This document shows, one piece after another, positions 42,883 through 47,543 of a stretch of 64,000 bases of DNA; the stretch's first letter is position 1, and every line of letters starts with the position of its first letter. The translations under genes were made by a program, and so were the position numbers. Where the stretch lies: NCBI RefSeq assembly GCF_025231485.1, contig NZ_CP104003.1:2976001-3040000 (forward strand), read 5' to 3'. This DNA comes from Salinirubellus salinus. Lineage in GTDB: Archaea > Halobacteriota > Halobacteria > Halobacteriales > Haloarculaceae. The notes beneath the pieces are model-generated. The model was not told where the DNA came from and made no database searches. It saw nothing but the letters and a program-made list of their open reading frames with translations.

Positions 42883-43022
42883 GTCCGGGCACCCGCAGAC
42901 GCGAGCGATACGGTCGCACCCACGCTCCGCGGTCCGCTGCGCTCACCGCTCCGCCGAGGCGTCTCGCTCCACGCGCCTCCGCGCACCCGAAGTCTAATGT
43001 CTCGGACGCACCTCGCCCCGGT

Positions 43023-43265
43023 ATGGCAGACATCGGCATCGACCTTCCCGACCGGATTCTCACCGAGATAGACCGCCTCGTCGAGCAGGGTGAGTTCCTC
43101 AACCGCGACCAGGCCGTCGAGGAACTGCTGGGGATGGGCGTCTCCGCCTACGAGACGACCACGGACGAGCCGGTCGAGGGCGTCGGCGACGACCCGTTCT
43201 CGCAGGCCGTCGACGACCAGCAGGACCCCGCGATGCGCGACGACGACTTCGGCGGCGGCTACTGA
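43023..43265 (+). CDS. Ribbon-helix-helix (CopG-like) protein
   Basis: An 80-residue protein. The N-terminal 45 residues, MADIGIDLPDRILTEIDRLV then EQGEFLNRDQAVEELLGMG, match a ribbon-helix-helix dimerisation and DNA-binding unit: one strand then two helices. An acidic, low-complexity tail ends in GGGY. It is likely a small transcription regulator; targets unknown. It lies 94 bp upstream of the SCP2-like gene on the same strand. No toxin gene is adjacent, so an antitoxin role is unlikely. Confidence 0.75.
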   Translation: MADIGIDLPDRILTEIDRLVEQGEFLNRDQAVEELLGMGVSAYETTTDEPVEGVGDDPFSQAVDDQQDPAMRDDDFGGGY

Positions 43266-44946: not shown

Positions 44947-45020
44947 GTGCGCGACTCAGTCTTCCGGTGGCGTTCGGTGGAACACTCGCTCACGCTCTCC
45001 GCTTCGCTCGCAGGAGGAAG

Positions 45021-45094
45021 TCCGCTCTCCCCGATTTGAACGGGGGACAAGTCGATCTACAGTCGACTGCTCTACCAAGCTGAGCTAAGAGCGG
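45021..45094 (-). tRNA. tRNA-Tyr (anticodon GTA)
   Basis: A 74-base cloverleaf on the minus strand. Acceptor stem CCGCTCT pairs with AGAGCGG, with discriminator A at 45021. The D-arm region is AGCTCAGCTTGGTAGAGC, the anticodon stem GTCGA/TCGAC encloses loop CTGTAGA (GTA = Tyr), and the T-arm is CCCCCGTTCAAATCGGGGA in approximate form. CCA is not encoded, as usual in archaea, and there is no intron. It is divergent from cdrL. Confidence 0.95.
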
Positions 45095-45190: not shown

Positions 45191-45222
45191 GTACGACGGA
45201 AGACAAGCGTGTACGACGGATG
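45191..45222 (+). promoter_or_regulatory. 20-bp-period direct repeat overlapping the cdrL start
   Basis: GTACGACGGA occurs at 45191-45200 and again at 45211-45220, the second copy running into the ATG. A TATA-like TTTCAAG lies just upstream, near 45185-45191. Two identical half-sites two helical turns apart at the transcript start suit a dimeric ribbon-helix-helix repressor, possibly CdrL or CdrS itself. Confidence 0.5.
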
Positions 45223-45780
45223 AGCAAGATCACGTTCCGAGCCGACGACGACCTCATCGAGCAGCTGGAGGAGTTCGACGCCTCCAAGAGCGAGGTCATG
45301 CGTGAGGCCCTCCGGGAGTACCTCGGGGAGCCGACGGCTGGGCTCGGGACGCAGTCGACGGCGTCTGACACGTCGTCCGTGGATCCGGCTTCGGGCAGCC
45401 TCGACGAGATGCTGGTCGAACGCATCGACGCGCTCATCGAAGACCGACTGGACGCGTACGACTCGCGGACGGCGCGTAAACCGCAGGATGTGAACGTAAA
45501 CATCACTCTCGACGGCGATTCCGGCAGTGCCGGGGTGTCGGAGGGTGAGGCCCGTAAGACACCCGTGGACGAGGGCGTAAACGAGCCCGAGCCGGAGGCG
45601 AAGACGTGTAAACAGTGCGGCGACGACCTGCCGCCGTCTGCCGTTTACTGCGCCAACTGCGGGGAGAAGGCGAGCCACCGCGTGTTCTGCGACTGCGGGG
45701 ACGAGATCCGCTCAGACTGGGCGTTCTGCCCCTCCTGCGGGCGTCGGACGCCGGCGGCCGATGTGTTAGACAAGTCGTAA
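45220..45780 (+). CDS. cdrL: CdrL: ribbon-helix-helix protein with double zinc ribbon
   Basis: A 186-residue protein. Residues 1-45 (MSKITFRADDDLIEQLEEF then SKSEVMREALREYL) form a ribbon-helix-helix domain, followed by an acidic Ser/Thr linker and a helical segment DEMLVERIDALIEDRLDAYD. The C-terminal double zinc ribbon has CKQCGDDL, CANCGEK, CDCGDE and CPSCGR. In Halobacterium salinarum the CdrS and CdrL regulators are encoded next to ftsZ2 and control cell division; domain order and position here match CdrL. It is followed by a 376-bp spacer and cdrS. Confidence 0.85.
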   Translation: MSKITFRADDDLIEQLEEFDASKSEVMREALREYLGEPTAGLGTQSTASDTSSVDPASGSLDEMLVERIDALIEDRLDAYDSRTARKPQDVNVNITLDGDSGSAGVSEGEARKTPVDEGVNEPEPEAKTCKQCGDDLPPSAVYCANCGEKASHRVFCDCGDEIRSDWAFCPSCGRRTPAADVLDKS

Positions 45781-46156
45781 ACGACGGGCATACGCCCTCG
45801 AGCTGCCGACAGAGTACGAGTACCACCCGTAAGAGATGCACCTCGACGTGCCGGCTCCCGCCCAAACGGGCCGGTCTCGACCGCCGAAATCGGCCTCAGG
45901 GCCGACGTGCGTCTGACGCACGCACGACGGTAAACGGCGTAAATGGCCGTCTCAGGCTGTATACCGCCGTAAGTGTTGTCGTGTCTTACGCTGGTGAAAA
46001 CATTTATAATACAACAGTCTGTGGTAGGAGATGCGTAAGACGGTCGTCTTACAGGGCGTGTGCGGCGGGGTGACTCGCCGCAGCGTGTGCACCCTGGAGA
46101 CACAGTGCGGGCGTGTGCCGCCTCCGTCTTACCGGACCACAAGGGGAAATACCAAA
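45781..46156 (+). promoter_or_regulatory. cdrS-ftsZ2 promoter and leader with GTAAG/CTTAC dyads
   Basis: A TATA box, TTTATAAT at 46003-46010, predicts a transcript start near 46031-46035. Dyad 1, CGTAAG...CTTACG at 45968-45990, ends 12 bp before the TATA box. Dyad 2, GTAAGAC-GGTC-GTCTTAC at 46035-46052, is perfect and covers the predicted start or the first leader bases. Half-sites occur at 45828-45834 (CGTAAGA) and 46126-46132 (GTCTTAC). The remaining leader to the ATG at 46157 holds no other TATA box. Confidence 0.6.
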
Positions 46157-46333
46157 ATGGAGCGTGTGACACTACGGATTCCGAAGCAGCAGATAGATGA
46201 GGTCGAACGGCTTGTCGACACCGGCAAGTTCCCGAACCGCAGCGAGGCGATTCGCGCGGCCGTTCGAGAGATGATCAACGAGGAGGCCGACGACGAGCAG
46301 CCGCCCAAGCGCCGCGGCTGGGCCAAGGTGTAA
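46157..46333 (+). CDS. cdrS: CdrS ribbon-helix-helix regulator of ftsZ2
   Basis: A 58-residue protein that is almost only a ribbon-helix-helix domain: strand [10 protein letters not shown], helix [13 protein letters not shown], helix [15 protein letters not shown], then an acidic/basic tail. It starts one codon before the strand, as expected. In Halobacterium, CdrS regulates ftsZ2 and cell division. The stop is one base before the ftsZ2 ATG, so the two are co-transcribed. An in-frame ATG at 46031, at the predicted transcript start, would add 42 Cys- and Arg-containing residues; the short form fits the family better. Confidence 0.88.
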
Positions 46334-46334
46334 G

Positions 46335-47543
46335 ATGCAGGACATCGTCAACTCCGCACTCGAGAACGCGGAGAAAGAGAAGCGCGACGTCGACGCGTCG
46401 TCCGACGGGGACGAGTTCGGTGACCCGCGCATCGTCATCATCGGGGCCGGCGGCGCCGGCAACAACACCGTCAACCGCCTGTACAACATCGGCGTCGACG
46501 GTGCCGACACGGTGGCCATCAACACCGACAAGCAGCACCTGAAGATGATCGAGGCCGACACGAAGATCCTCGTCGGCAAGTCGCTCACCCAGGGGCTGGG
46601 TGCCGGTGGCGACCCCTCGATGGGCGAGCGCGCCACCGAGATGGCGCAGGGCACCATCAAGGAGGTCCTCGGTGATGCCGACCTCGTGTTCGTCACGGCC
46701 GGTATGGGTGGCGGGACCGGCACCGGTGCCGCCCCCGTCTGTGCGAAGATCGCCAAGGAGCAGGGCGCCATCGTCGTGGGCATGGTCTCGACGCCGTTCA
46801 ACGTCGAGCGTGCCCGCACGGTGAAGGCCGAGGAGGGGCTGGAGAAGCTCCGCAACGAAGCGGACTCCATCATCGTCCTGGACAACAACCGCCTGCTCGA
46901 CTACGTCCCGAACCTGCCCATCGGCAAGGCGTTCTCGGTGATGGACCAGATCATCGCCGAGACGGTCAAGGGTATCTCCGAGACCATCACCCAGCCGAGC
47001 CTCATCAACCTCGACTACGCGGACATGACGTCCATCATGAACCAGGGCGGCGTGGCCGTGATGCTCGTCGGGGAGACGCAGGACAAGAACAAGACCGAGG
47101 AGGTGGTGAAGGACGCGATGAACCACCCGCTCCTCGACGTCGACTACCGCGGTGCATCGGGGGGACTGGTCCACATCACCGGCGGCCCCGACCTCACGCT
47201 GAAAGAGGCCGAGGGTATCGCCCAGAACATCACCGAGCGGCTCGAGGCCTCCGCGAACGTCATCTGGGGCGCTCGCATCCAGGAGGAGTACAAGGGTAAG
47301 GTGCGGGTCATGGCCATCATGACCGGCGTCCAGTCCGCCCAGATCCTCGGACCGACGACCCAGAAGCAGGCCAACGCCTCCCGCCGCGCCATCGAGGGCG
47401 GCGAGACCGGCGGCCAGCAGGGGAGCTCCGGCTCCTCGTTCGAGGCGAGCGGCAACGGCGGCAGCGGCTCCGTCGACTACGGCGAGACGGACGGCGGCGA
47501 GTCCCAGCTCGAGAAGAACAACGGCCTCGACGTCATCCGATAA
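46335..47543 (+). CDS. ftsZ2: Cell division GTPase FtsZ2
   Basis: A 402-residue tubulin-like GTPase that forms the division ring. Glycine motif [15 protein letters not shown] is near residue 36, the GTP signature [10 protein letters not shown] near residue 131, and the synergy-loop region [11 protein letters not shown] near residue 226. The tail after about residue 350 is Gly/Ser-rich and ends [10 protein letters not shown]. Its place behind cdrS identifies it as FtsZ2, the haloarchaeal paralogue needed for constriction, rather than FtsZ1. Gene order cdrS-ftsZ2 with ncsA nearby matches other haloarchaea. Confidence 0.93.

Follow-up and report, generated by a model that had tools for sequence, protein, structure and literature searches.

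RHH proteins of the MetJ, Arc and NikR type recognise short dyads in which the centres of the two half-sites stand about one helical turn apart. It is to these operators, through the common property of RHH proteins reading short dyads, that the palindromic sequence upstream of the haloarchaeal cdrS and ftsZ2 genes can be likened; we know of no RHH operator that doubles as an RNA helix. A second analogue comes from structured cis-regulatory leaders, the riboswitches and protein-responsive elements represented in Rfam, which the predicted cdrS leader resembles in its 5'-UTR position, multi-branched fold, covariation and single downstream operon. The cdrS leader differs from these known leaders in having no Rfam match, and in that its helices coincide with operator-type half-sites.

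The regulators themselves have been studied in two haloarchaea. In Hbt. salinarum the only reproducible ChIP site of CdrL lies upstream of cdrS-ftsZ2 (Darnell et al. 2020, PMC7439475), that is, a single genomic site in the same promoter region as the dyad described here; the words 'motif' and 'palindrom' are absent from the main text of that paper, its account of the site mentions no RNA, and in our comparison the dyad is kept in genomes that lack detectable CdrL. In H. volcanii a symmetric CdrS motif with 18 sites has been reported (PMC8406309), and the cdrS dyad has the same 18-bp N4 frame as the dyads before ftsZ1, hisB and a threonine ammonia-lyase gene in a Haloferax genome, but carries A at base 3 and sits at the predicted transcription start, not 5' of the TATA box. 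The CdrS ChIP table of the same paper does not contain the cdrS promoter, and a figure legend there gives H. volcanii cdrS a 5' UTR with a TATA box and a +1 position. Ribo-seq and RNA-seq in Hbt. salinarum show that cdrS-ftsZ2 mRNA and ribosome occupancy diverge, so that post-transcriptional control is suspected (PMC8303175). Structured leaders as a means of translational control have been called not typical of haloarchaea, and 72% of protein-coding transcripts in H. volcanii are leaderless (PMC4983044).

The window analysed here is a stretch of 64,000 nucleotides from Salinirubellus salinus (contig NZ_CP104003.1, positions 2,976,001 to 3,040,000), and a Pfam domain search of it confirms the identities of three consecutive genes on its forward strand. 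These are cdrL (45220-45780; RHH_1, PF24252 CdrL_M and DZR; ATG at 45220 taken from the open reading frame), which lies directly upstream of the cdrS promoter; cdrS (46157-46333; RHH_1), which encodes 58 amino acids; and ftsZ2 (46335-47543; Tubulin and FtsZ_C). Further upstream are a tRNA-Tyr gene (45020-45094, reverse strand) 5' of cdrL, and a gene for a small DUF7120 protein by Pfam (42900-43262, forward strand) about 2 kb 5' of cdrL; a tRNA gene also stands 5' of cdrS in three of four loci scanned (L006, L035 and L203).

The cdrS promoter has a TATA box, TTTATAAT, at 46003-46010, from the spacing of which transcription would be predicted to start at 46030-46036 (+/-3 nt), giving a leader of about 120-125 nt. 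At this predicted start lies the dyad GTAAGAC-GGTC-GTCTTAC (46035-46052), the arms of which we call A and A', and in 122 of 160 loci A lies 32-33 bp downstream from the T that opens the TATA box. A conserved, SD-like GGGG (46143-46146), identified in the leader alignment, precedes the start codon. An in-frame ATG at 46031, just 5' of the dyad, would extend CdrS to 100 amino acids, and is best regarded as an annotation trap because the cdrS start conserved in relatives is 46157. A leader of about 125 nt and a coding region of about 180 nt together somewhat exceed the published monocistronic cdrS band, at about 250 nt.

A sequence-only reading of this stretch had reported several GTAAG and CTTAC words around the promoter, all of which lie where it placed them, and had proposed that the perfect palindrome at the predicted start be sought before other cdrS-ftsZ2 operons. 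When cdrS loci were gathered from genomes of the family and order, 154 of the 161 haloarchaeal loci proved to carry an exact GTAAGAC-N2-6-GTCTTAC 5' of the gene, the spacer between A and A' being 2-6 nt long across the set. The 4.38-Mb genome contains GTAAGAC-N(0-30)-GTCTTAC once, and this is the cdrS dyad (the reversed control gave 0); the next best site resembling GTAAGAC-N4-GTCTTAC has one mismatch. Of the 160 rows left for a site-by-site count after removal of those that were identical or poorly matched, 158 have an exact A and 155 an exact A'; in L071 and L139, A' is GTATGAC. A further GTCTTAC at 46126-46132, which we call B', is exact in 141 of 160 and thereby bears out one of two additional half-sites that had been listed; the other, given as 45828, did not hold up and was discarded, as its GTAAG (45829-45833) recurs in no other row compared.

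The same reading had seen a second palindrome just upstream of the TATA box, formed by CGTAAG (45968-45973) and CTTACG (45985-45990). Its right arm is conserved, but as a unit the palindrome had to be abandoned: the left arm is missing from the nearest genera (L006-L013), where the right arm is kept, and one arm only is retained as a rule. In family f7 this is a GTAAGAC within about 2 bp of the left-arm place, replacing the right arm. The right arm, like B', recurs widely among the loci, and defines a single site, U (GTCTTAC, 45983-45989), which is 13 bp 5' of the TATA box and is untranscribed from this promoter. Scored as GTCTTAC, GTCATAC or their complements (four forms) up to 36 nt 5' of the TATA box, an exact U heptamer stands in 132 of the 150 cdrL-bearing loci and in 5 of the 10 others; a control window farther 5' has one in 2 of 160. 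In L111, L133, L134 and L135 the place of U, 5' of the TATA box, is taken by a complete dyad, GTAAAAC-N4-GTTTTAC, which is likewise untranscribed; L108 has the same replacement with N5, and L132 has GTAAGAC-N3-GTTTTAC. Such a full dyad in place of U looks like an operator repeated across the TATA box. GTAAACG/CGTTTAC words also recur 5' of U in many loci.

The dyad has relatives elsewhere in the genome. The pattern GTMNGAC-N4-GTCNKAC occurs at nine sites in S. salinus and at none in the reversed control. One lies 63 nt from the ftsZ1 ATG, immediately 5' of the TATA box; others stand before genes that include those for a DUF7139 membrane protein, a TauE-type transporter and an RDD protein. The DUF7139 protein we take to be the division protein CdpA/HVO_0739. 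Its promoter carries the full dyad (up to two mismatches) in only 12 of 30 genomes and often shows one clear half-site only; many of these 30 promoters (L312-L341) have a conserved GTCTGAC(A/G)TA block followed by a T-rich stretch 5' of the start codon. At ftsZ1, 25 of 30 genomes have GTMWGAC-N4-GTCWKAC with up to two mismatches and none of the 30 has the reversed pattern; a looser frame finds a dyad in 27 of 30 promoters, with C at base 3 in 48 of 54 halves and GTAAGAC in 0 of 54. A dyad of the form GTNNGAC-N4-GTCNNAC is therefore found near haloarchaeal division promoters, but the half-site letters are not those of the CdrS regulon, base 3 being A at cdrS and mostly C at ftsZ1, and for that reason we class the cdrS dyad as a variant.

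In a Haloferax genome there are 15 dyad places against one in the reversed control, and three of these precede ftsZ1 (identified by sequence), hisB and a threonine ammonia-lyase gene (NCBIfam), all of which are in the CdrS ChIP table of PMC8406309; the matching to the table covers these three of the 15 places, one of the other 12 being at cdrS. Dyads before these ChIP-listed genes make it very probable that the N4 dyad is the motif of CdrS, and its presence at ftsZ1 and the Haloferax ChIP genes would make the cdrS dyad a variant operator of the CdrS/CdrL type. The suggestion that repeated sites on both sides of one TATA box form a repressor layout, by which division might be timed, can be kept in part: as to layout, conserved sites do flank the TATA box, and the architecture of 7+N4+7 is that of the CdrS ChIP targets in the table, but the upstream palindrome does not contribute to it as a unit.

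Which paralogue would read the dyad is less straightforward. The single CdrL site in Hbt. salinarum (PMC7439475) fits the one GTAAGAC dyad of the S. salinus genome, and the simple reading would be a paralogue code in which CdrL reads the A form and CdrS the C form. Against such a code, CdrL was undetected in seven genomes that are at least 94% complete (G004, G006, G063, G126, G139, G206 and G208), all of which have an exact dyad; CdrL is therefore not the only reason for the dyad, and we reject it as the sole reader. Pairing in RNA would account for A, A' and B' being kept without CdrL where U is exact in only half of the loci, although the numbers are small.

The leader was compared among relatives by reducing the 161 loci to 159 with recognisable A and A', and these to 121 non-redundant leaders. 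In these, the nucleotides flanking A match those flanking B' (GG/CC here; GACG/CGTC, GGCG/CGCC, GAG/CTC, GGAC/GTCC or AG/CT in relatives), just as the nucleotides around A' correspond to those around a mid-leader copy, B (GTGTAAGAC in many relatives), which could be placed confidently in 83 of the 121. Within one genus-level group (L035-L039) the flank pairs change together, as GAG/CTC, GGG/CCC and GGAC/GTCC. Covariation was measured on 73 of the 121, hand-picked for canonical length and layout and aligned by sequence alone. For two nested helices, P1 (A with B') and P2 (A' with B), 91.9% of cells are paired and there are 80 two-sided changes against a shuffle mean of 32 (0 of 500 shuffles as high). 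Coarser measures are less marked: the number of pairs with a two-sided change is 7 against 5.3 (6 of 500 as high), and further pair types number 25 against 22.3 (24 of 500 as high). Sliding the partner by 1-3 columns lowers pairing to 31-47%.

A tree-aware null, in which independent columns were simulated on a FastTree phylogeny of the cdrS-ftsZ2 coding start, gave joint p values for P1 of 0/1000 (pair 10-120) and 0.002 (11-119), and for P2 of 0/1000 (24-73, 25-72 and 26-71), 0.001 (27-70) and 0.01 (23-74), against 0.22-0.89 for eight slid control pairs (300 simulations each). On its own, each measure gives the two P1 flank pairs modest values: p is 0.45 and 0.11 for the fraction paired, and 0.015 and 0.021 for two-sided changes. 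Since the core heptamers are almost invariant, the support for P1 and P2 comes from their flanks, which favour nested over local pairing of the dyad arms in RNA. RNAalifold on the sequence-only alignment recovered P1 and did not recover P2.

Thermodynamic predictions point in the same direction. Partition functions favour A:B' over A:A' in 100 of 121 leaders and A':B over B:B' in 74 of 83. Compared with dinucleotide shuffles, folding is more stable for whole leaders (mean z -5.0, n=83), for the segment inside P2 (mean z -1.56, n=83) and for the P3 segment between B and B' (mean z -1.27, n=79), P3 having compensatory forms in L011-L013. A normal B' was not found in L112, L116 and L117. The covariation-supported helices P1 and P2 make the region a candidate structured cis-regulatory leader.

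In the window itself the predicted leader would consist of a closing helix, P1, a branch, P2, with inner hairpins, and a hairpin, P3. By fold and covariation, the 5' strand of P1 (GUAAGACGG, 46035-46043) pairs with a 3' strand at 46124-46132 (CCGUCUUAC) that contains B' and ends 10 nt before the GGGG motif. The 5' strand of P2 (GUCUUACAGGG, 46046-46056), placed by the centroid fold and by covariation in relatives, pairs with CCCUGGAGAC (46092-46101), the window's degenerate version of site B. Inside P2, 46061-46069 folds with 46074-46082 into a hairpin of which the sequence varies among relatives, and a weak P3 (46107-46121; GCGG/CCGC, loop GCGTGTG) has three of its four pairs in the centroid. 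The unconstrained centroid contains P1, P2 with one bulge and the inner hairpin; of the two helices, only P1 is in the minimum-energy fold, and folding of this leader gives a z-score of -2.05. Over the set of leaders, the mean unpaired probabilities are 0.44 for the SD-like motif and 0.51 for the AUG, so that neither element is plainly accessible or plainly sequestered.

A covariance model built from the leaders, R1, was scanned over 392 genomes of the phylum and matches 79, namely 78 Halobacteriales and one outsider; S. salinus has one match (E 5e-21). In all 68 of the 78 genomes for which the place of cdrS is known, the best match abuts or overlaps the cdrS start. R1 matches thus lie just upstream of the cdrS operon, and the predicted transcript start would make them 5' UTRs. 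Several divergent families have matches that are weak but in place. At least three Halobacteriales genomes lack a match (G125, G126 and G152); that in G126 (L121) appears under laxer filters, while L127 (G125), L128 and L129 have no forward match. The outsider (L274 in G316, E 9e-5), which precedes an unrelated HTH-like open reading frame and has the ends GTAAGACG...CGTCTTAC, is outside Halobacteriales and away from cdrS, and is probably a chance match. One genome, G181, has a weak match of 20 bits elsewhere; the remaining surplus matches of R1 lie over the cdrS leader but on its opposite strand. Another genome, G010 (60% complete), has two cdrS loci with different leaders (L048 and L049), possibly reflecting a mixed assembly. 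Rfam returned nothing for the leader in the window or in four loci, only tRNA in the flanks, and among the titles and abstracts listed by full-text searches, with most subscription journals and bioRxiv preprints outside their range, none describes the leader or the dyad. What we regard as new, then, is a candidate RNA leader acting in cis, the helices of which fall on operator-type half-sites.

Our preferred explanation, to which we give a probability of about 0.6, is that one sequence serves twice, in DNA as an operator of the CdrS/CdrL RHH family and in RNA as helices of a structured leader. Were it used in DNA only, the heptamers being half-sites of CdrL and/or CdrS and their pairing in RNA a by-product of inverted repeats, one could readily understand the CdrL ChIP site in the cdrS-ftsZ2 promoter region (PMC7439475), the kinship with CdrS targets, and the motif common to untranscribed U and the dyads that replace it. 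G-U pairs (36 observed, 43 expected) and A-C mismatches (24 observed, 41 expected) in the helix extensions do not separate strand or molecule. Use in DNA alone leaves unexplained, however, why the extensions of P1 and P2 covary across roughly 50-90 nt and do so even within one genus-level group, and why the inner segments fold better than shuffles; a spacer varying by 2-6 nt and a dyad that outlasts detectable CdrL also tell against it, and we think it unlikely. The converse, that this is solely a structured leader, an mRNA stabiliser or a ligand- or protein-responsive element with an incidental likeness to CdrS operators, accords with the covariation, the distribution of R1, the folding z-scores and the fate of the dyad and of U where CdrL is lacking. 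Yet it does not account for the lower variability of A and A' relative to B, for a conserved site that is not transcribed, for an N4 spacing common to ftsZ1 promoters or for the CdrL ChIP site (PMC7439475), and we judge it slightly less likely still.

The sequence-only reading had also suggested that the start-site palindrome forms a hairpin at the 5' end of the mRNA. Its arms are perfectly complementary and do pair, but the covariation of the flanks supports nested partners, 46035 with the 46126 site and 46046 with the mid-leader site, over local ones. The A:A' hairpin has a mean pairing probability of 0.15 and is dominant in some leaders; nonetheless, the flanks of A:A' and B:B' show no covariation (3 two-sided cells, with 482 of 500 shuffles as high), and the GTATGAC that stands as A' in two loci breaks A:A'. 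We reject the local hairpins as the conserved fold, and consider a functional A:A' element very improbable. As for palindromes arising by chance or composition, single half-sites are indeed short, and nothing else speaks for this idea, which is refuted by a dyad present in 154 of 161 loci and unique in its genome; its probability is negligible.

If the double use is correct, the start-site dyad and the single site U 5' of the TATA box would be a putative operator of the CdrS/CdrL RHH family. The position of the dyad at the start site suggests negative autoregulation of cdrS-ftsZ2, a bound RHH regulator blocking initiation; factors bound at or 3' of a promoter are usually inhibitory, as the discussion of Liao et al. 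(2021, PMC8406309) notes. The sister dyad of ftsZ1, in which base 3 is usually C, sits 5' of the TATA box and so would occupy an activator position. In RNA, the two heptamers, the 46126 site and the mid-leader copy would form P1 and P2 of a leader of about 125 nt, most likely tuning translation or decay of the cdrS-ftsZ2 mRNA, so that autoregulation may be combined with post-transcriptional control. Given that leader-based control is regarded as atypical of haloarchaea (PMC4983044), a cdrS leader so widely kept is unlikely to be idle. More doubtful is a transcribed operator, in which the regulator reads the heptamer in DNA and also the P1 and P2 arms of its own mRNA, or a bistable switch between A:B' with A':B and A:A' with B:B'.

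How archaea control FtsZ-based division is little understood. From this study come a probable consensus sequence of the CdrS regulon and, in the third base of the half-site (A or C), a hypothesis for how CdrL and CdrS sites may be discriminated. The leader, together with its operator-type dyad, could be the cis element for the post-transcriptional control of cdrS-ftsZ2 that the ribosome occupancy data had led others to suspect (PMC8303175). Should the transcribed operator or the switch prove true, one sequence would couple transcriptional and translational feedback on archaeal cell division.
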